Assembly: GCA_003648455.1 (NCBI GenBank) | Contig: QMPG01000118.1 | Span: forward strand, 1 to 8,781 | From: Bacteroidota bacterium | Lineage (GTDB): Bacteria; Bacteroidota; Bacteroidia; Bacteroidales; B39-G9 | DNA: 8,781 bases | Direction: 5' to 3' | Shown: positions 569 through 8,781 of the stretch, in pieces | Layout: each line of letters starts with the position of its first letter | How positions within the stretch are numbered: the first letter of the stretch is position 1 | Position numbers and translations under genes: made by a program | Notes under the pieces: generated by a model | What the model saw: only the letters and a program-made list of their open reading frames with translations | Databases searched by the model: none | Told to the model about the DNA's origin: nothing

Positions 569-1345
569 TTATTTGAATTTTTCAAAGTATTTATCAATTT
601 CTTCTCTCATGTCAATACCAACTCTTTCAAAACAACCAAGTAAATCATTATAAGCATCTTCTCCACCTAAAAAGTCCCAAAATTCTTCTGCAACTTTTAA
701 TTCTTTATCCAAATCAAGCATTCCAGCCATTGTCCACCGACTATATGGTTTTGGTTCATAAGGATTGTAAGGGATAGCTATGAGTGTATTTATTTTTGCT
801 TTAGGATTTTCAGCCAAAACCGTTGCTGTCCATTCTAACAGAGTTCGTTTAAATTCCTTAAATCCGCCTTTGTTCGGTTTGGCTGTTTTTATATCAATCA
901 AATATATTTCACCATCATTGCGTTCAAGATAAACATCTACTCTTGTAGGTTTTATTGTTCGCATTTCACCTTTTTGACATACTTTTCTGATAATTTCAAT
1001 TTCTTTTTTTTTATCCGGTTTTTTGTTTGCCGTAGTCAACTCATCCATTATTTTTTGGATTTCATACTGTGCCTGTTCACTTATCTTTGTTCCTGATTTC
1101 ATTTGAAGTTTTGCAATTTTAAATCGGGTTGAAGCCAATAAAACTGCAACTGGCTCAAATATGGTTGTTCCAAAATTTGTATTTAAAGAATGAATAAAAG
1201 AATAGAGTGCAAGTCTGTCTTTTCCTAACAATCGTGTATGAAATGGCATAACCGCCGGTTCAGGATTGTAAGTTGCAAATCTTTTTCTAATACTTGATTT
1301 TATAGTTTCTTCAACTGATTGTATTTGTTGCTTAGATAAAGCCAT
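569..1345 (-). CDS. Type II restriction endonuclease, TdeIII/MjaII-like (probable GGNCC specificity)
   Basis: This 258-aa protein probably cuts double-stranded DNA at the site protected by the methyltransferase encoded just upstream. A PD-(D/E)xK-type nuclease core is visible. Asp137, in T-R-V-D-V-Y-L, is followed by strand I-Y-L-I and D151-I-K153, then a lysine-rich loop (PNKGG, 157-161). Glu64 in FEPVAVLLA is a plausible upstream helix acidic residue. The overall look matches my memory of the TdeIII/MjaII family, whose members recognise GGNCC. The specificity is inferred and not visible in the sequence. The start codon overlaps the methyltransferase stop by one base (TAATG), and an AAAGGAA Shine-Dalgarno lies about seven bases upstream, inside the methyltransferase gene. 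Coupled translation after the methyltransferase fits the need to protect the host first. Length and catalytic residues look complete. Confidence 0.8.
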   Translation of the reverse strand: MALSKQQIQSVEETIKSSIRKRFATYNPEPAVMPFHTRLLGKDRLALYSFIHSLNTNFGTTIFEPVAVLLASTRFKIAKLQMKSGTKISEQAQYEIQKIMDELTTANKKPDKKKEIEIIRKVCQKGEMRTIKPTRVDVYLERNDGEIYLIDIKTAKPNKGGFKEFKRTLLEWTATVLAENPKAKINTLIAIPYNPYEPKPYSRWTMAGMLDLDKELKVAEEFWDFLGGEDAYNDLLGCFERVGIDMREEIDKYFEKFK

Positions 1346-2922
1346 TATTTTTCCTTTAAATGAAATATTATTTCAGCGTAAGCTGATTTATTTTTTTCCG
1401 TTCTGTTTAAAACAGGTCGTTTATATTGATTTACAATTTTCATCCCTGCGTTTTCAGCAATTGTTGGATACATATTGTATTTATCATTTGCCACAAGAAA
1501 AATATCATAATTGTTTTGTAAATATTGCTTTGAGTTATTCAAAACTTGTGCAATTCCTTTAATATAGGAATTTATTGCTTCACGACCTTGTCCTTTATAT
1601 AACGGACCAATTTCCAATTCATCATTTCTTTTAAATCCAAACAAATCATAGGCATAAGCGTGTTGTTCGTGATAATTTATCAACCCAACATAAGGCGGAC
1701 TTGAAAATATTCCCTTAATTTTTTGTTTTTTAATCAACTTTGCAAAATCAGGTTTTTTTTTCCCCATTTCTGAAACAATATCAATATTTCTGGCATCTCC
1801 TTGTATGCATAATTGGTAGGTATCTGTTCGTAATGTGTCAAATTTTTTTAGTCTTTCAACTGTATCTTTGCTGTATCTTTGCCACCAAGAAAGCATTGAA
1901 AATAAAGGTTTACAAATTTTTCCGTGTTTACTGCAATAATATGTTGTTGTAACAGGTTCTTTTAAAGTTGCCAAATCAGCGTGTGTTGTTGCCCTACACG
2001 ACCTAATTGTTCTGCTTAAAATAATTGTTATGATTTTTTTTGTAGCAGGATTTTTTACTCTTTTTAATTGTTCAAAAGTAAAATCTATTTCATCTTTTAC
2101 CGGTTTTAGATACCATTTCTCAAGAAAGTTATTGGCTGTTTGTTGTTTTATAGTTAAGTTATATTTTTTTTTAAGATTGTTGAAAATTTTTAAAAATTCA
2201 TTCTCTTTTTGTGGTGTATATTCTTTATTATTTATTTCTTTATTTCTAACTTTTATTTTAAAATCCGGTGAAGGGAAATATTTTTTATTAAAAATATTCA
2301 ATTTTTCAAGTAATTCGTTTTCAAATTGAGTGTTATTATTTTTTTTTATAAAATCTTTTAATGCTAGAGTAATTCGTTGTAACTCTTTATTTAAATCATC
2401 AAAATCGACTTTACCGATTTTAACATTTGCAATTAAGGAATTAAAGGCAGATATATCAACCCCAATTGCGTGCATTCCCAATTCGTTTGCTTGAACCATT
2501 GTTGTGCCACTGCCAGAAAACGGGTCTAAAATAATATCATCTTTTTTAAAATAGGTTTCTTTTTTGAAATTATCGGTATGATTATCAAGAAAATACTCAA
2601 CTAATTGTGGTATAAATTTCCCTTTATATGGGTGTAATCTATGAACATGTTTTGTAGTGTCTTTCTCTTTTAAATTATCAAACGATAATGCCCAATTTAA
2701 GTCGTTTCCTAATTTTTTTCTCCAATCGGTTTCTCGTTGTCCGTTATAACTTTTATAGTAAGAAATTAAATCATATTTATTTACAGCAGTTGTACCGTTG
2801 TTACCATATTTTTTTACTTTTCCGTATTGAATTAGATATGAAATATTAGAAGTAGTTACATTCTTTTTTAAATGTTTACTTGCCCATTCACTTGCTTTTT
2901 TTATTGTTAATAATTCTGTCAT
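1345..2922 (-). CDS. Type II DNA methyltransferase (N4-cytosine/N6-adenine family) with N-terminal HTH-like domain
   Basis: This 525-aa SAM-dependent methyltransferase should protect host DNA from the endonuclease downstream. Residues 1-58 resemble a helix-turn-helix or excisionase-type DNA-binding domain (TIKKASEW, TSNISYLIQYGKVKKYG). A motif X-like segment, HPYKGKFIPQLVEYF (97-111), precedes SAM-binding motif I, DPFSGSGTT (133-141), and motif II, GVDIS (154-158). A long lysine-rich middle (about 170-400) probably holds target recognition and includes the characteristic CRATTHADLATL stretch (309-320). The catalytic motif SPPY is at 408-411. The order I, recognition, IV is alpha-like, and serine in SPPY is usual for N4-cytosine enzymes, which would suit a GGNCC system; N6-adenine cannot be excluded. 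It is the first gene of the operon, with an AAGGA ribosome site seven bases before ATG. Confidence 0.88.
   Translation of the reverse strand: MTELLTIKKASEWASKHLKKNVTTSNISYLIQYGKVKKYGNNGTTAVNKYDLISYYKSYNGQRETDWRKKLGNDLNWALSFDNLKEKDTTKHVHRLHPYKGKFIPQLVEYFLDNHTDNFKKETYFKKDDIILDPFSGSGTTMVQANELGMHAIGVDISAFNSLIANVKIGKVDFDDLNKELQRITLALKDFIKKNNNTQFENELLEKLNIFNKKYFPSPDFKIKVRNKEINNKEYTPQKENEFLKIFNNLKKKYNLTIKQQTANNFLEKWYLKPVKDEIDFTFEQLKRVKNPATKKIITIILSRTIRSCRATTHADLATLKEPVTTTYYCSKHGKICKPLFSMLSWWQRYSKDTVERLKKFDTLRTDTYQLCIQGDARNIDIVSEMGKKKPDFAKLIKKQKIKGIFSSPPYVGLINYHEQHAYAYDLFGFKRNDELEIGPLYKGQGREAINSYIKGIAQVLNNSKQYLQNNYDIFLVANDKYNMYPTIAENAGMKIVNQYKRPVLNRTEKNKSAYAEIIFHLKEK
1352..1355 (-). promoter_or_regulatory. 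Ribosome binding site for the restriction endonuclease
   Basis: On the minus strand AAAGGAAAAATAATG places an AGGA core about seven bases before the endonuclease ATG, inside the 3' end of the methyltransferase gene. It supports the chosen start and translational coupling. Such strong sites are absent from the neighbouring non-R-M genes. Confidence 0.6.
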
Positions 2923-2978: not shown

Positions 2979-3005
2979 TTTTATTTGTTTACTTTTTCAC
3001 TTACT

Positions 3006-3101
3006 CTAATGATGTCCAACACAAAGATAAACCATAATAAAAATACCTACGATGGAGATTAGCAAAAGATAAATTCCGAAAATTACTTGGAATTTTGATT
3101 T
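3006..3101 (-). pseudogene. N-terminal remnant of a paralogue of the 3193-3669 membrane protein
   Basis: On the minus strand 3101 down to 3009 reads KSKFQVIFGIYLLLISI and onward, ending at TAG (3006-3008). The intact neighbour has KSKTQLIFGIFLLLFSI at residues 13-29, and 13 of these 17 positions are identical. At DNA level the shared block around AATTTTCGGAATTT is obvious. The frame has a TAA just upstream of the first lysine and no start codon, and it ends after about 31 codons, within the first membrane helix. It is therefore a broken 5' piece. It lies directly downstream of the intact gene's terminator, as expected for a tandem duplicate, and its C-terminal partner piece is at 176-313. Confidence 0.8.
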
Positions 3102-3143
3102 TTAGTTTATCAATATATTAAACACTCTAAATTTAATAAAAAA

Positions 3144-3170
3144 AATAGAGATTCTATTAGAATCTCTATT
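3144..3170 (-). terminator. Rho-independent-type terminator after the small membrane protein gene
   Basis: AATAGAGATTCTA (3144-3156) and TAGAATCTCTATT (3158-3170) are perfect inverted copies with almost no spacer, so the real loop uses a few stem bases. A run of T follows on the minus strand, and T-rich sequence also follows on the plus strand. It starts 22 bases after the stop of the 3193-3669 gene and could act in both directions. Confidence 0.75.
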
Positions 3171-3192
3171 TTTATATATTTTTTTATTTCTT

Positions 3193-3669
3193 TTATTCAC
3201 TTTCAATTAATTCAATATTTTTACTTTCGGCAATTTTTTTTATTATCAATTTTATTTGCAACACATATTCAGAATCAATATTTGAGACGAAAATAAGATT
3301 CTGTGGTTTATCCTCAGTAGTTATTTTTATGTATCCACCACGAAATGTCAAATTTATTTTTTTAATATCTTTCCATAATATTTGTTTCTCTTTGTTTATT
3401 GTTTTTATTCGAATTTGTTCTTCATTAATGTGCACAAATGATTTGCGGCCCAAAAAATCATTTATTATGTACCCTTTTCCTTGTGCTATGAACATTAACC
3501 CAAATAAAAAATTTAGAAACATAAAAAGCCAAAAGTAGGAAGAAATGTGATATATTTCAAAAACGAGAGCAAACATAATTGATATTGAGAATAGTAAAAG
3601 AAAAATTCCGAAAATTAATTGAGTTTTTGATTTTTTATAATGTCCATATAGATTTTGATTGTATTCCAT
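3193..3669 (-). CDS. Small two-helix membrane protein with PH-like C-terminal domain, unknown function
   Basis: This 158-aa protein has a short hydrophilic start (about 1-16), two hydrophobic helices (about 17-38 and 44-63), and a cytoplasmic-looking tail (about 70-158). The tail has alternating strands (FVHINEEQIRIKT, KQILWKDIKKINL, YIKITTED, NLIFVSN) and ends in a lysine-rich helix. That layout resembles the bacterial PH-domain membrane proteins common in Bacteroidota; this is a fold-level guess, not a family match. No catalytic motif is seen. Two fragments of a diverged paralogue lie downstream at 3006-3101 and 176-313, so the gene was once one of a tandem pair. A TAATTTTG box (3716-3709) could be its -7 element, though no clear -33 is seen. 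There is no Shine-Dalgarno. It looks intact and has its own terminator. Confidence 0.8.
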   Translation of the reverse strand: MEYNQNLYGHYKKSKTQLIFGIFLLLFSISIMFALVFEIYHISSYFWLFMFLNFLFGLMFIAQGKGYIINDFLGRKSFVHINEEQIRIKTINKEKQILWKDIKKINLTFRGGYIKITTEDKPQNLIFVSNIDSEYVLQIKLIIKKIAESKNIELIESE

Positions 3670-3796
3670 AATTTATTTTTTAATAGTTTTTAATTAAATT
3701 CCTAAAATCAAAATTATAATTTATTTTATTTAAAAGAAATTAATTGTCTCTATATTTAAGTTCCCAAAGAATTAGTTTGACATAACTATAAAATAA

Positions 3797-3826
3797 AATA
3801 GAGACACACATTTTGGTGTCTCTATT
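3797..3826 (-). terminator. Terminator after the M49-like lipoprotein gene
   Basis: AATAGAGACAC (3797-3807) pairs perfectly with GTGTCTCTATT (3816-3826) around an eight-base loop. T-rich sequence follows on both strands. It begins 27 bases past the stop of the 3853-5490 gene. It shares the AATAGAGA/TCTCTATT outer stem with the hairpin at 3144-3170. Confidence 0.75.
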
Positions 3827-3852
3827 TTTAAAGTTATTTTTTTTAATATGGG

Positions 3853-5490
3853 TTAATAATACAATCCAATTACGTTTTTACCTTGAGAGAAAGTAACGTC
3901 AACAGGAATTCCTGCATTAGCAATTTTATCATGAGTTTTTTGTAATTCAGGATTTATTTTTCCGTATTTTTCAATAAGTTTGCTGGCTTCATCATAGTCT
4001 CCATTGCCTTGTATAATAAGTATTTTTTGAGATAGATCTGTAGTAGCTTTTTTCATATTATCAAAATCAATAATGTATTTACCGAATTTGTTTAATGAAA
4101 ATGCATGGTATTCATTAAAATAATTGTAGATAATAAGGTTTGCTATAGCTTGAGAGTTTGAAGCTCCAAATCGAACAGAACGAATTATGTCTGACATAAA
4201 TGTAATATAATTATCCATTAAATTTTTATCATTTAATATACCACCCATTTCTTGGAGTTTTGTAATAAAGAAAAGACTAAGAATATTTGATTTTAGTTCA
4301 TTTGCAATATTATATTTTTCTCTAAGAGCTTGTTTTACTGACCCTCTGTTATTAATTGTATTTGTCATTCCCAGACAGTTTCCAACCTCATAAAACATTG
4401 ATATTTCAAAGAAAGAATCAAATTTTACATGACTAAGTTGATCAGCATCAATAACTACATTGCTTATTGGTTTTAAGATTTTTTCAAATTTGGCTTTCAT
4501 TACATTCTTAAATTCTAATTTGCGACTTCCTTTATTGTAACCTTCTTGTCCAACAAAAGGATAAACAATAGATATTTTTTTACTGCCTGTATTGCAATTG
4601 CCGGCAGCATATACTAAATCATAAACACAAATATCTGAATTAATTTCAGGGATTTCTTTTTTATATTTTGCATCTACAGGAAGCATTTTCTGTAAATCAG
4701 GCAAAATATTTGTAAATTTTTTAAGTTTCGCAGTCCAATTATTATCTTTAATTAGAACAAAAGCTTCATAAGATGCTTTTGCACCCAGCAGAAGGTCTTC
4801 ATATGTTTCGATAGGACCAATAATTATGTCAATATTATTGTCGAGCATCTCAATCCAAGCAATGTCGCTTGCAAGATAATCGTCTGTTTTTATTGCTTTT
4901 GCACGAAGTTGTAGGTAGTTTTTTAAATTTTTATTTTCTGACTTGGAGGCAGCTTTATTTAGAATTTCAGAAATTTTATTAACATTATTTTTATAGGCTT
5001 TGTGGTAAGGAATTGTTACCAGATTCCCGTCTTTTTTCCGCCTTATAATTGTGTACATGCTATACTTATCATCAGAATTTAATGCGTCAAATTCCCAAAA
5101 AGTCATGTTTGAAGGATAAAAACGTGCGCCTACAGGTTTTATCCCATATTTTTCGATAAAAGGTTTGTTTCCATCCAATCTGTCCCAAGTACCATAATTA
5201 ATTAGTGCGAATTTTTTTAAATCTTTGTCTTTTATCTCGTCAATAAGTTTTTCTTTATTTCCAAAAGACTGCTTCCAGAAAATATTGTCAGCATATTTTG
5301 CAGCATCAATAAACAATCCTAGCATTTCTTTTTCTTTTTTACTTAAAGAACTTATATCCGATGTAAGTTTTACTTCAACATATTCAGATAGCTTTTTATT
5401 TATATCTGTAGAAACATCTTCATCTTTTATTGTTTTTTTACAACTAATAATTGATAGAGAAATTAAAAGAACTAAAATTTTTTTTGACAT
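3853..5490 (-). CDS. M49 (dipeptidyl-peptidase III-like) family lipoprotein with degenerate zinc site, probable pseudoenzyme
   Basis: This 545-aa protein has a lipoprotein signal (hydrophobic 5-16, lipobox SIIS-C17), so it is probably anchored in the cell envelope. Family features include GPIETYEDLLLGAKASYEAF (225-244), KNVMKAKFEKILKPI (328-342) and HVKFDSFF (354-361), as in the short M49 metallopeptidases of Bacteroidota. Active relatives carry HExxH or HExxGH next, followed by an E-E motif supplying the third zinc ligand. Here the site reads Y367-E-V-G-N371-C-L-G, so both histidines are lost while Glu368 remains. The later motif reads N397-E398-L-K-S-N402, keeping one Glu. Where relatives have AHG near the C-terminus, this one has S446-Q-A. 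The frame is otherwise open and full length. It probably cannot bind zinc normally and may bind peptides or act in a structural role. It is monocistronic, with no Shine-Dalgarno. Confidence 0.8.
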   Translation of the reverse strand: MSKKILVLLISLSIISCKKTIKDEDVSTDINKKLSEYVEVKLTSDISSLSKKEKEMLGLFIDAAKYADNIFWKQSFGNKEKLIDEIKDKDLKKFALINYGTWDRLDGNKPFIEKYGIKPVGARFYPSNMTFWEFDALNSDDKYSMYTIIRRKKDGNLVTIPYHKAYKNNVNKISEILNKAASKSENKNLKNYLQLRAKAIKTDDYLASDIAWIEMLDNNIDIIIGPIETYEDLLLGAKASYEAFVLIKDNNWTAKLKKFTNILPDLQKMLPVDAKYKKEIPEINSDICVYDLVYAAGNCNTGSKKISIVYPFVGQEGYNKGSRKLEFKNVMKAKFEKILKPISNVVIDADQLSHVKFDSFFEISMFYEVGNCLGMTNTINNRGSVKQALREKYNIANELKSNILSLFFITKLQEMGGILNDKNLMDNYITFMSDIIRSVRFGASNSQAIANLIIYNYFNEYHAFSLNKFGKYIIDFDNMKKATTDLSQKILIIQGNGDYDEASKLIEKYGKINPELQKTHDKIANAGIPVDVTFSQGKNVIGLYY

Positions 5491-5583
5491 GGCTTTAGTT
5501 TTTAGTTAATATCTAGTTAAATTTAAGAAAAAAATCAATCAAAATCAATTTTTTTTTCGCTATGAAATGTCTAAATAACAGAG

Positions 5584-5623
5584 CATAAAAAAAGAGTAAG
5601 TTTAAGCTTACTCTTTTTTTATG
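5584..5623 (-). terminator. Strong hairpin terminator after the TPR protein gene
   Basis: CATAAAAAAAGAGTAAG (5584-5600) and CTTACTCTTTTTTTATG (5607-5623) form a perfect 17-bp stem around the loop TTTAAG. The A/T outer stem supplies a seven-base U-run on either strand. It starts 16 bases beyond the stop of the 5639-6331 gene. Confidence 0.85.
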
Positions 5624-5638
5624 AAATTTTAGTAACGT

Positions 5639-6331
5639 TTATAAAGCTTCAAGTTCTTTTTTTATCTTTTCAGCTTTATCTTTCTTGCCAATATTTGAAT
5701 AAATATTGATTAAAGCTTTAAGAACTGATTTGTTTTTATTGTGATATTCGTATGCTTTTTCAATAAGAGGCAGAGCTTCATTAAATTTCGCATTTGCTTT
5801 TGCATATTCAGCCTTGAATTTTTCAGGATCTGTTTTATTCATACCGCTTTCGTTTGCAGCTTTTTTTATTTTATTTCCTTCTTTATAGAATACCAAACCT
5901 TGTTTGAAAAAACATGAAGCCATTAGTTTATTCAAATTTTTATCACTACTGTATAATTCTAAGCCTTCTTTAAGAGTTGTTTCCATTTCTTTGTATTTCT
6001 TATTCTTGCTTAAAATTTGAGCTTTGTAAATAAAAGGTTTTGATTTCTTATAATTTAATTCAATTGATTTATTAAAATATGGCAAAGCTTCGTCATATTT
6101 TTTTGATTTGTATGCACAGTATCCAGTATTATATACTAGGGGAGTGTCAACTTTATTTTCAGCTTCAAATAAAGCAATAGCCTGTTTAAATGAAATGAAA
6201 GCCTCTTCATATTTTTTGTTTTTGTAAGCTTCGTTTCCTTCTTTAATAAAAGAATTTGCATCTTTTTTTTCTTGAGCTGTCAAGCTGATAAAACTGAATA
6301 ATAGAAGTGCAATAATCGTTAGGTTTTTCAT
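5639..6331 (-). CDS. Secreted tetratricopeptide-repeat (TPR) protein
   Basis: This 230-aa protein has an N-terminal signal peptide (about 1-19, ending SLTAQ), so it is exported, probably to the periplasm. TPR-like helix pairs follow: FIKEGNEAYKNKKYEEAFISF (about 28-48), VYNTGYCAYKSKKYDEALPYF (67-86), and IYKAQILSKNKKYKEMETTL (101-120). A weaker unit at 134-150 is interrupted by a charged insert (about 151-175), and a C-terminal unit spans 181-228. TPRs serve as protein-binding scaffolds; no enzymatic domain is present and the partner is unknown. The gene lies 95 bases after the three-gene envelope operon with no obvious terminator between them, so some read-through is possible. A weak promoter candidate lies at 6379-6408. 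The start is chosen for the signal peptide; no Shine-Dalgarno is seen. Confidence 0.85.
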   Translation of the reverse strand: MKNLTIIALLLFSFISLTAQEKKDANSFIKEGNEAYKNKKYEEAFISFKQAIALFEAENKVDTPLVYNTGYCAYKSKKYDEALPYFNKSIELNYKKSKPFIYKAQILSKNKKYKEMETTLKEGLELYSSDKNLNKLMASCFFKQGLVFYKEGNKIKKAANESGMNKTDPEKFKAEYAKANAKFNEALPLIEKAYEYHNKNKSVLKALINIYSNIGKKDKAEKIKKELEAL

Positions 6332-6378
6332 TTGTTTGAATATTAAATAATTATTTTTTAAAAAAATTTTTGCGACTG

Positions 6379-6408
6379 TAAAAATAGAAAAAAAAATAAA
6401 AAATCAAA
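6379..6408 (-). promoter_or_regulatory. Weak candidate promoter for the TPR gene
   Basis: On the minus strand TATTTTTA (6386-6379) has one mismatch to TAnnTTTG, and TTTG (6408-6405) lies 18 bases upstream as a -33 element. The surrounding sequence is almost pure A/T, so chance matches are likely. Confidence 0.25.
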
Positions 6409-6426
6409 AAAAATATTAATGCATGC

Positions 6427-7095
6427 TTACTTGTTAAAAATATAATTGTAGTCATTGTAGAAATTTGAAGAGAAAGAATTTTGATTAAATTGTGGGAAAT
6501 AATTTGGATTATTTATATTATTAAATCTGTTTGAAACACTAATTTGAGCACCAAAATGTATATTTTTCTTTATTGAATAATTAAACCCTAATGTCATTTC
6601 TTTTTCCTCAAAATTTAATGCATTTGAATTTAATTTATTATTATGAAAATTATTTGAGCTGTATACTACTCTGCTTGTAAAATTTATTTTATTGTTAAGT
6701 TGATACTGAGCTTGTGCGTAAACAGTGTATCTTGTAATATTTGTTGGTAGTGCCTTTTGAATTTCATTTCTATATATTGGATAGTAATTTAATGAACCGT
6801 TCATATAAGAAGTACCAAAATTCACTTTAATTTTTTCATTTATTGAGTAATTAAAATTGGGAGCAATGTAATAGTTAAATAATGTGTTTTTATTTATAAG
6901 GGATACACTACTACCTATTGAAAGCGAATATTTTAGGTTACTATTTTTTAAAATAGCTTGCGATTGAATTTTTCGGTTAAGAAAAGAAGTGTCTTGATTA
7001 ATATTCATAATTGAGATATAATCAGCTTCTTGGGCAATTAAGCCTGAATATAAAAGAAAAGCTAAAATAAAAATTAAAACCTTTTTTAAAAGCAT
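6427..7095 (-). CDS. Probable outer-membrane beta-barrel-like protein, unknown function
   Basis: I do not recognise a named family. The 222-aa product has a signal peptide (about 1-20, ending LIAQ). It is followed by alternating polar/hydrophobic strands rich in Asn, Ser, Tyr and Phe, such as LKYSLSIGSSVSL, FNYYIAPNFNYSI, KIKVNFGTSYM, YTVYAQAQYQL, INFTSRVVYSS, MTLGFNYSI and HFGAQISVSNRF. Paired strands with short turns (SINEKIK, QLNNKIN, SIKKNIH) are typical of small outer-membrane barrels of about 8-10 strands. The tail (about 195-222) is Asn/Phe/Tyr-rich and looks disordered. The gene starts five bases after the stop of the secreted-protein gene upstream, so it is the third gene of an operon. 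No Shine-Dalgarno is seen. Confidence 0.75.
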   Translation of the reverse strand: MLLKKVLIFILAFLLYSGLIAQEADYISIMNINQDTSFLNRKIQSQAILKNSNLKYSLSIGSSVSLINKNTLFNYYIAPNFNYSINEKIKVNFGTSYMNGSLNYYPIYRNEIQKALPTNITRYTVYAQAQYQLNNKINFTSRVVYSSNNFHNNKLNSNALNFEEKEMTLGFNYSIKKNIHFGAQISVSNRFNNINNPNYFPQFNQNSFSSNFYNDYNYIFNK

Positions 7096-7100
7096 AATAA

Positions 7101-7538
7101 TTAATTATCTAAAAAACCAATTAAGACAGCAATACATCCTGATTTATTATTATTTTTGTCTTTAGGAACGTGAATTGAGACAATGGTTTGTAAATTTGTG
7201 TTAAAATAAAAATCCCAAATATTGCTAAAATTATTTTTCTTGTTGTCAAAAATGATATTTCTGTTAATATCTAAAATTTGAAACTCAATTTTTGGCAAAT
7301 TATTGTCTGAACATATTAGGATTCTGTAATCTTGATTAGAAAAAAACGTTTTATATAATTCAATTGTTTCTCCTTGATTAATTTTTTGCGTTACATAAAC
7401 ACCATTATGAGTATATGGGCTTAATTTTTCTTTCCATTTTTTTTGTTTTGCAAATACATCACATTGTGCATTTGAAAACAATGAAAATGAAATAAGCACT
7501 AAAAAACACAGGACTATTTTTTTTTGTAATAACTTCAT
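7101..7538 (-). CDS. Small secreted beta-rich protein, unknown function
   Basis: This 145-aa protein has a signal peptide (about 1-25, ending FSNAQ) followed directly by Cys26. A beta-sandwich-like domain spans about 48-143: YVTQKINQGETIELYKTFF, YRILICS, KIEFQILDINRNIIFD, FYFNTNLQTIVSIHV and GCIAVLIGF. The run of strands with a D-x-N-x-N-I-I-F turn recalls PPC-like (prepeptidase C-terminal) sandwiches; this is a fold-level resemblance only. Cys76 and Cys135 could form a disulfide after export. The gene lies 41 bases after the lipoprotein gene and five bases before the barrel-like gene, so the three are probably co-transcribed and may work together at the envelope. No Shine-Dalgarno is seen. 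Confidence 0.75.
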   Translation of the reverse strand: MKLLQKKIVLCFLVLISFSLFSNAQCDVFAKQKKWKEKLSPYTHNGVYVTQKINQGETIELYKTFFSNQDYRILICSDNNLPKIEFQILDINRNIIFDNKKNNFSNIWDFYFNTNLQTIVSIHVPKDKNNNKSGCIAVLIGFLDN

Positions 7539-7579
7539 TAAAAATTTATATACACAAATAAGTGAAAAAATGATTGTTT

Positions 7580-8500
7580 TTATTGAATAATATTACTCCT
7601 GATACTATCTACTTTTGTACACAATTTATTAAAAATTTTATCACTCATAAAAATGTCAGTTTTGGCTTTTAATGTTGTGATTTTTGTTTCATTATCAGTA
7701 ATAGGTTCAATTTTCGAACTAACAATTTGAATTTCGTCATAAACCGATTTAATGCTGTACATGTCAGCAAGTATTGAATTAATTGATTTGCTGTCTTTAT
7801 ATTCTTCAAGTAGATTTATAAGAGTATTTAGAGAGATTTTTTGATCAACAATCCTGTCAATTAATTCATTATTATTTTGTGATTTTTTTGTTAATTGGGT
7901 TGCTATATAAAGTCCTTCAATCCAGCCGCCAACAATAATCATTGTAGCTATTTCAGGTCTTCCATTTTCTTTTAAAGATGAATTAGAATTTGTGAATATT
8001 TCTGAAATAATTTCCATACATGAATCTCTGTTATTTACATTACTTTCTAAGCGGTCAGCAAAATTTTTGTCAACAATATTCATTAATCCTAATTCCTCAG
8101 CAAGAGTTTTTGATGTTGATAAATATTTAATGGAGGTTTGTGTTTGGTCAAATAAGCTTGCGTAACTTAAGTCGGCTCCATATATGCCTAAATTTAAGGC
8201 TTTGCTTTTGCTAGTATTATATTTTACTGAGTTTTCTATTGGATTTAATATTGTCCCATCGAATGTTGTTTCAGCCCGTTTTATTAACATTGTAGTTTCA
8301 ATGGGAGAGGGAAGAGCATAAAATATTTGTTTAGCTTTGTTAAAATCATTAGTTAATTTTTCATCTTCATTAATGGATTCTTGAATTTTTTCATTAACTT
8401 TTTTATCCTTTTCGTCAGATGTGCAAGAATAAATAAACATTGAGATTGTTACAAATGTTAAAAAAGATATTAACCTTCTTTTTGTTGTAAATATTTTCAT
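7580..8500 (-). CDS. Conserved-looking Bacteroidota lipoprotein, unknown function
   Basis: This 306-aa protein has a positively charged start (KRR, 7-9), a hydrophobic stretch and lipobox FIYSC26, so it is a predicted lipoprotein. After a Glu/Lys-rich linker (29-55) the rest appears all-helical. The most distinctive stretch is LGIYGADLSYASLFDQTQ (about 103-120), followed by a helix with Tyr, Lys and LAEELGL. I have the impression that this pattern recurs in uncharacterised Bacteroidota lipoproteins, but I cannot name the family. A second motif, IVGGWIEGLYIATQ (about 189-202), looks like a conserved helix packing against it. It is the first gene of the three-gene envelope operon, about 60 bases downstream of a good -7 box (8560-8567). 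There is no Shine-Dalgarno. The start is set by the signal peptide. Confidence 0.8.
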   Translation of the reverse strand: MKIFTTKRRLISFLTFVTISMFIYSCTSDEKDKKVNEKIQESINEDEKLTNDFNKAKQIFYALPSPIETTMLIKRAETTFDGTILNPIENSVKYNTSKSKALNLGIYGADLSYASLFDQTQTSIKYLSTSKTLAEELGLMNIVDKNFADRLESNVNNRDSCMEIISEIFTNSNSSLKENGRPEIATMIIVGGWIEGLYIATQLTKKSQNNNELIDRIVDQKISLNTLINLLEEYKDSKSINSILADMYSIKSVYDEIQIVSSKIEPITDNETKITTLKAKTDIFMSDKIFNKLCTKVDSIRSNIIQ

Positions 8501-8559
8501 ATGATTTATGTTTTATTTAATGCTAAAATAATATTTTAGTAAAAATAATATTTTTTTAC

Positions 8560-8592
8560 CAAAAATAACAACAATAATAACAATAATAACAA
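8560..8592 (-). promoter_or_regulatory. Candidate promoter of the three-gene envelope operon
   Basis: TATTTTTG on the minus strand (8567-8560) is a full TAnnTTTG -7 match. A TTG (8592-8590) lies 22 bases upstream as a possible -33 element. That element falls inside a 9-bp tandem repeat in which each unit offers a TTG. Transcription would start near 8553, leaving a leader of about 52 bases before the lipoprotein start codon. Confidence 0.4.
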
Positions 8593-8597
8593 TAATA
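8571..8597. repeat. Three perfect tandem copies of a 9-bp unit
   Basis: The unit ACAATAATA repeats perfectly at 8571-8579, 8580-8588 and 8589-8597, with degenerate related sequence on both sides. The tract covers the position expected for the -33 element of the envelope operon promoter. Nearby CTAAAAT-AAT-ATTTTAG (8523-8539) is a small palindrome in the leader region. Confidence 0.8.
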
Positions 8598-8661
8598 TAA
8601 AAATAACTAATAACATTATTTAACCCGAGAAAATCATAATTTTTCTACGCTTAAGAATTAC

Positions 8662-8781
8662 CAACAAATTTGGTGTTATTAAAACCCCAAATTTGGGTAC
8701 TTCTAATGCGGGGTTTACTTGCGTGAGCTCACCGCCAGCTGGCGGTTCGGTTCCCGCTTTACTTTCCACTATCCATCGCTA
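8662..8781. repeat. Right copy of the flanking direct repeat, with a nested palindromic insert
   Basis: It has the same layout as the repeat at 1-84 and the same orientation. CAAATTTGG (8665-8673) faces CCAAATTTG (8687-8695), AAACCCC (8682-8688) faces GGGGTTT (8710-8716), and CCCAAATTTGGG (8686-8697) is a palindrome. Two base changes relative to the left copy shorten the inner stem. Bases 8719-8754 are extra. The repeat runs off the window end, so its true right border is unknown. Confidence 0.85.
8719..8754. repeat. 36-bp GC-rich palindromic element inside the right repeat
   Basis: This block is absent from the left copy. It contains two adjoining perfect palindromes sharing two bases, GTGAGCTCAC (8723-8732) and ACCGCCAGCTGGCGGT (8731-8746). 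The GC content is far above the surroundings. It resembles a small REP-like or miniature intergenic element. The exact borders are ambiguous by a base because C residues flank the junctions. Confidence 0.7.

Follow-up and report, generated by a model that had tools for sequence, protein, structure and literature searches.

A DPP III-like putative lipoprotein of Bacteroidota with a replaced zinc site: a probable pseudopeptidase and its clade

What becomes of a peptidase fold once the residues that hold its metal have been exchanged? The question is raised by a gene in an 8,781-nucleotide stretch of contig QMPG01000118.1 from a Bacteroidota bacterium (the window), where an intact reading frame encodes a lipoprotein-like protein of 545 residues related to dipeptidyl peptidase III (DPP III, family M49), with both zinc histidines replaced. 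A first-pass annotation had described the product as a probable dead M49 peptidase, and its sequence, its clade, its selective constraint and its predicted fold are all consistent with that description, which if anything says too little. Like other pseudoenzymes, the protein shows homology to enzymes whose essential catalytic residues it lacks, and it belongs to a lineage maintained by selection. We consider it very likely that this DPP III paralogue is anchored in the envelope and neither holds zinc nor catalyses, and the best reading is of an ancient paralogue kept for a non-catalytic role. The features of the locus are collected in Table 1.

The open frame of 545 codons and the M49 membership proposed in the first-pass annotation were both found. 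The protein matches PF03571 (E=6e-14, 51.8 bits with a cut-off of 21) over residues 111–302 only, and it aligns near full length with CaDPP III (6eom, E=3.3e-88), a bacterial dipeptidyl peptidase III and the closest solved structure, and with CoDPP III (5zum, E=8e-75); NCBIfam gave no match for the 545-residue protein. Structure prediction, which had been suggested as a check, recovers the M49 fold: the model superposes on 6eom over 508 residues at 1.6 Å, with 33% identity over these residues (29% over 513 to 5zum), and the two-domain DPP III fold is predicted to be retained. The window protein resembles CaDPP III and CoDPP III in fold, in length and in residues E228, E368 and E398, but differs from them at the zinc His, the third His, the second-shell acids and the clamp Asn, all of which are replaced.

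Residue correspondences to CaDPP III were read from the HMMER alignment with 6eom; papers are cited by PubMed Central (PMC) number. In CaDPP III and CoDPP III, zinc is held by two His and the Glu of the second motif (PMC5805324, PMC9820243). The window protein reads Y367-E-V-G-N371-C, with Y367 and N371 aligned to H379 and H383 of 6eom, and the earlier description was correct in residues and positions, both here and for the retained E368 and E398 and the altered N397, N402 and S446-Q-A. The protein has no HExxGH or HExxH, no EExxAE/D second motif and no third catalytic His, and of the acids of the second motif E398 alone remains. An HExxH elsewhere, which had been named as the observation that would overturn a dead reading, was looked for and is absent from the whole protein, which contains four His in all (163, 354, 462 and 520). 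In rat DPP III, zinc and activity are both absent from H450Y, H455Y and E508A (PMC3268031), H450Y being the same exchange as at Y367; replacement of E507 or E512, the counterparts of N397 and N402 here, weakens zinc binding, with a dissociation constant 10- to 1e5-fold higher, and replacement of E451 leaves zinc present and activity gone (PMC3268031). H568 of the human enzyme, replaced here by Q447, is an oxyanion stabiliser (PMC8836397). By analogy with the rat mutants, the window protein would hold no zinc and cut no dipeptides. The clamp of the S2 site, formed by residues E316-N391-N394 (PMC5805324, PMC8836397), is changed as well: its Glu is kept as E228 and both Asn are replaced, by V309 and F312. 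Together with E228, the protein keeps Y230 and E242, the three corresponding to CaDPP III E240, Y242 and E254.

The exchanges are no chance oddity, and many other proteins carry them. Three protein searches were made, from which the best 120 of 1593, 1556 and 7837 matches, respectively, were considered. Among the matches listed, 19 of 120 proteins lack HExxH in the first search, 75 of 182 carry the dead pattern in the first two, and 86 of 277 sequences do so in all three, with locus L030 added as outgroup; as these are best-120 lists and dead copies served as queries in the second and third searches, the last fraction is no prevalence. All three His are kept in the other 191, each of which has the complete active-type set (HE..H, EE, D, third H, N..N), and there are no intermediates. 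The dead pattern is [Y/F/W]-E-x-x-[S/N/D/E/Q/Y] with Gln for the third His. The first position is Tyr in 81 sequences, Phe in four and Trp in one; position 371 is Ser in 63, Asn in 12, Glu in five, Asp in four, Gln in one and Tyr in one; the third is Gln in 86/86. E368 is kept in 86/86 and E398 in 77/86, and among positions 367, 368, 371, 397, 398, 402 and 447 only E368 keeps the active-type letter throughout, a constancy that is the best lead to function. In the clamp, N312 is lost in 86/86 and N309 in 66 (kept in 20), position 228 is Glu in 69, Asp in 16 and Gln in one, and Y230 is lost in all 80 sequences other than the six window-type ones. Of 156 positions conserved at 95% or more in 107 active-type sequences, 107 are unchanged in no fewer than 90% of the 75 dead sequences compared. 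Zinc, catalytic and clamp positions belong to those lost, and near-constant residues particular to the dead set include Y367, N394, S405, D434, N445 and Q447. Three His and one clamp Asn are exchanged together and the general-base Glu is never lost among the 86; the clade forms an M49 pseudoenzyme branch with a clean contrast between before and after.

The N-terminal Cys17 is conserved in at least 90% of 94 rows (alignment A3), and the lipobox-like SIISC that precedes it in the window was assigned by inspection; a strict lipobox regular expression matches 39 of 84 dead proteins, and 140 of 196 of the active type. Two further observations concern the diversity of the dead set. Nine of its 86 members (P0183–P0189, P0196 and P0213) have lost E398 and kept E368. 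Dead M49 proteins beyond the window type and the Y/S type comprise P0183–P0189, P0196, P0197 and P0213, and loci L061 and L084.

Ten active-site columns were taken out of the alignment before tree building. The 86 dead and 197 active-type rows were reduced by length and identity to 59 and 54, and in the resulting tree the dead set forms one side of a branch (Shimodaira–Hasegawa-like approximate likelihood ratio test, SH-aLRT, 99). In a careful tree of 26 dead sequences, hand-picked for diversity, and 28 of the active type (alternate rows together with some chosen by name), the dead set is monophyletic with an ultrafast bootstrap (UFBoot) of 100 and SH-aLRT of 99, and it appears in 200/200 bootstrap trees (100%). 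The expectation that the Y/N variant would form its own clade is borne out, the clade being wider than Y/N. Rooting on L030, a distant HEVSH homologue (31% identical, on a long branch), places the dead clade inside the active-type set. A single clade fits a single old loss. The codons TAT and AAC of Y367 and N371 are each one base from a His codon, as had been pointed out, but the substitutions are old, so this distance carries no sign of recency and the hint of a recent loss is misleading.

Selection was measured with pairwise codon models on seven pairs of M49 genes and five pairs of neighbouring genes. The ratio of nonsynonymous (dN) to synonymous (dS) substitution rates, omega, takes the rough values of 0.030 (window–L001), 0.025 (window–L071) and 0.064 (L001–L071), and twice the log-likelihood difference from neutrality is 453, 442 and 288 for the same pairs. 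Window-type genes are under strong purifying selection, in line with the anticipated dN/dS well below 1 and a frame kept by selection. Where two genome pairs could be matched, the dead copies have dN values of 0.131 and 0.141 and the active-type paralogues 0.091 and 0.109, so that the dead copies have evolved somewhat faster.

In an order sample of 393 genomes, motifs were read in the 30 loci L040–L069, of which nine are dead and 21 of the active type, and in some additional regions. A full-length dead copy is present in nine genomes (G001, G003, G004, G006, G071, G102, G202, G286 and G348), seven of which (G004, G006, G071, G102, G202, G286 and G348) also carry an HExxH copy; in G001 and G003, which have the window-type copy, no HExxH copy was found, both being draft assemblies of unstated completeness. 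The copy of G005 reads YEVGN and meets the contig end before the later motifs, with no second copy found. Dead copies thus occur in at least ten of the 393 genomes, a lower bound because motifs were read in part of the matches. In a class-wide sample of 395, only G001 exceeds 740 bits, and HEVAH is the motif in the 11 loci that rank next. Among the matches listed, the named sources of dead copies are metagenome-assembled genomes labelled Bacteroidales, Marinilabiliales, Bacteroidetes or Chlorobi, and the proteins, where named, are often called Zn-dependent hydrolase or hypothetical protein, some of them dipeptidyl-peptidase 3 family protein. Judged from the residues, the names Zn-dependent hydrolase and dipeptidyl-peptidase 3 family are very probably wrong for these proteins. 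At E 0.01, PF03571 recognises only 8 of the 19 Y-type dead homologues in alignment A1, so that annotation by profile overlooks many members of the clade.

We propose that the protein descends from an active-type DPP III and has lost catalysis. In its sequence the two zinc His, the His that stabilises the oxyanion, a pair of second-shell acids and both clamp Asn are replaced, and the two-domain fold is predicted to be kept. Less certainly, the two-lobed body may now serve at the envelope as a clamp or scaffold without catalysis, for a ligand or partner other than free peptide N-termini, and the rebuilt zinc site (aromatic 367, E368, Q447, N394, S405, D434 and N445) may support the fold or bind that ligand. 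Several points weigh against this account. The dS values are saturated in most pairs, which makes omega soft and leaves the rejection of neutrality firm, and the nesting inside the active-type set is moderately supported (93/88 for the enclosing group and 85/69 for the sister P0106, with a long outgroup). A purely structural role leaves the retention of E368 and E398 unexplained. Neighbouring genes differ between the window and Y/S subtypes, and an upstream lipoprotein family is far commoner than dead copies, so that the genomic context names no partner. The mutants invoked are those of rat DPP III, a distant eukaryotic relative, and in the human enzyme a further metal-binding site lies close to the catalytic one (PMC10454320).

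Other explanations can be set beside a zinc-free, non-catalytic paralogue. A recently decayed gene or a sequencing artefact heading for loss might be suspected from the two codons one base from His; this is refuted by the open frame, the conserved neighbours, an omega of about 0.03 and the occurrence of the same pattern in 86 sequences forming one clade, and we give it practically no chance. A changed metal site, likewise raised in the first-pass annotation, would have E368, E398, N371 and Q447 hold another ion and make the protein a different enzyme or a metal-dependent binder. A change of metal and chemistry on the M49 fold is described for PolE/DUF6421, which are Fe- and pterin-dependent oxidases with the iron motif HE/DxxHx(21-23)E (PMC12614342). 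However, DUF6421 keeps both His and the Glu (PMC12614342), whereas the dead clade lacks His there and the window protein has none at either position; only E368 is constant, E398 is missing in 9/86 and residue 371 is variable, leaving no conserved ligand set. These observations disfavour a clade-wide change of metal, the idea surviving in a form specific to the window subgroup, and we regard it as very unlikely.

A different proposal is that of a dead DPP III-type peptide-binding lipoprotein, whose cleft would close on peptide N-termini and present or sequester peptides uncut. The fold is kept in the prediction, the window protein retains E228, Y230 and E242, and the inactive human E451A still binds peptides in crystals, zinc and clamp residues being kept there (PMC5667867, PMC9101112). 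Both Asn of the E-N-N clamp are, however, gone from the window protein, which disfavours canonical N-terminal peptide binding, the non-catalytic role that had been offered as an example; across the clade N312 is always lost and N309 mostly so, Y230 is lost outside the six window-type sequences, and Gln takes the place of the His that forms a hydrogen bond with the P1 carbonyl. Peptide binding of this kind therefore seems unlikely. A regulatory pseudoenzyme, pairing with and modulating an active-type paralogue encoded elsewhere in the genome, would agree with the HExxH copy in seven of the nine genomes and with the crystallisation of ligand-free CoDPP III as a dimer (PMC9820243), but it would leave the draft genomes G001 and G003 without the paralogue found, and dead and active copies lie on different contigs or far apart (about 967 kb on one contig in G286); we consider it distinctly unlikely. 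Both of these proposals are compatible with a dead peptidase. Finally, the M49 zinc cleft might have turned into a metal-free functional site, made of the aromatic residue, E368 and the Gln, for a ligand of another kind than peptide N-termini, with binding or chemistry as its activity. This is a doubtful and tentative suggestion; if true, it would be a new function for the M49 fold, in Bacteroidales-group lipoproteins.

Pseudopeptidases are already known as a kind, and in other families conserved inactive homologues exist beside active relatives, as in the iRhoms, whose fold is unrelated to that of the dead M49 clade. Closer at hand, the Bacteroidota HExxH M49 lipoprotein-like proteins (for example P0011, L080–L083) show about 50% identity and likewise a lipoprotein-like N-terminus, but differ in their full HE..H, EE, D, third H and N..N and in their loci. 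Among the papers listed by the PMC searches none treats an inactive M49 clade, and one mentions a single fungal M49 homologue without the motif, An01g02980 of Aspergillus niger, which lacks the hexapeptide and whose proteolysis was judged unlikely by its authors (PMC7804941); this is one protein from a genome survey, set beside the dead clade by its description alone. An01g02980 stands against any broad claim of novelty. The dead M49 clade itself is undescribed in the literature searched. With it, the behaviour of a zinc-free DPP III body can be put to the test, which matters for non-catalytic DPP III roles elsewhere, such as the interaction of human DPP3 with KEAP1 (PMC10532290).

Four genes lie upstream of the pseudo-DPP III gene, in the same order in its two nearest relatives (3/3 window-type loci), the most distal being cut by the contig end in L071. 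Collinearity of the window with L001, whose dead copy is an 81% relative, spans 3179–8557 at about 80% nucleotide identity. The 306-residue lipoprotein-like product of the most distal gene matches nothing in NCBIfam and nothing above cut-off in Pfam. Its family is widespread and often multi-copy (163 of the 393 genomes of the order sample). Six terminator-like sites are found in 3000–8700, versus a shuffled mean of 1.3, and because of the hairpin between the tetratricopeptide repeat (TPR) protein gene and the pseudo-DPP III gene a single transcript is not established. Y/S-type dead genes adjoin the same six genes in 4/4 loci read (L073–L076); by Pfam these include phosphoribosyltransferase, adenylate kinase, PAP2 and lipoate ligase genes, and the other two are presumably purE-like (opposite strand) and Obg-like. 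Active-type paralogues sit at other chromosomal places. L080–L083 share two downstream gene families, whereas the surroundings of L078 and L079 differ; three of L080–L083 also share two upstream flavodoxin-like genes, one assigned by Pfam and the other presumably of this type.

Table 1. Features of the pseudo-DPP III locus in the window
Feature	Position	Strand	Basis or remark
Pseudo-DPP III gene (M49 non-peptidase homologue), 545 aa, lipoprotein-like	3853-5490	(-)	sequence, Pfam, structure homologues, predicted fold
Signal peptide and lipobox-like SIISC; Cys17 presumed lipidation site	5440-5490	(-)	inspection
V309-Y-P-F312 replacing N-x-x-N, peptide N-terminus clamp	4555-4566	(-)	CaDPP III N321/N324, human N391/N394
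Y367-E-V-G-N371 replacing zinc motif HExxH	4378-4392	(-)	alignment to 6eom, homologue motif counts
Y367 (TAT)	4390-4392	(-)	aligned to H379 of 6eom
E368	4387-4389	(-)	aligned to E380 of 6eom; general-base Glu
N371 (AAC)	4378-4380	(-)	aligned to H383 of 6eom; followed by C372
N397-E398-L-K-S-N402 replacing EExKAD	4285-4302	(-)	ligand Glu E398 kept, second-shell acids lost
N397	4300-4302	(-)	aligned to E411 of 6eom
E398	4297-4299	(-)	aligned to E412 of 6eom; third zinc ligand
N402	4285-4287	(-)	aligned to D of EECKAD in 6eom
S446	4153-4155	(-)	Q447 and A448 next
Q447 replacing catalytic third His	4150-4152	(-)	CaDPP III H460; taken as human H568
Terminator-like hairpin, 13 pairs	3795-3828	(-)	just downstream of pseudo-DPP III gene
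Hairpin between TPR gene and pseudo-DPP III gene	5584-5623		hairpin scan
TPR protein gene	5639-6331	(-)	upstream, signal-like N-terminus by inspection
Barrel-like protein gene	6427-7095	(-)	upstream, signal-like N-terminus by inspection
145-aa protein gene	7101-7538	(-)	upstream, signal-like N-terminus by inspection
Lipoprotein-like 306-aa protein gene	7580-8500	(-)	upstream, signal-like N-terminus by inspection
Small-protein second-copy pieces flanking restriction-modification pair	179-313 and 3027-3103		sequence match

Elsewhere in the window, 569–2922 (-) encodes a type II methyltransferase together with a restriction endonuclease of the TdeIII type (PF09520, E=2e-99). The small protein of 3193–3669 has a broken second copy on either side, with residues 13–37 at 3101–3027 and 111–155 at 313–179, and the restriction-modification pair seems to have taken the place of the central part of this tandem duplicate; L001 and L071 showed no related pair. 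The window ends (1–84 and 8662–8781) carry near-identical direct repeats, with 57 nt at 96% followed by 28 nt identical. Two exact sub-strings of these repeats are absent from L001, L070 and L071, and the repeats are possibly a dispersed element.
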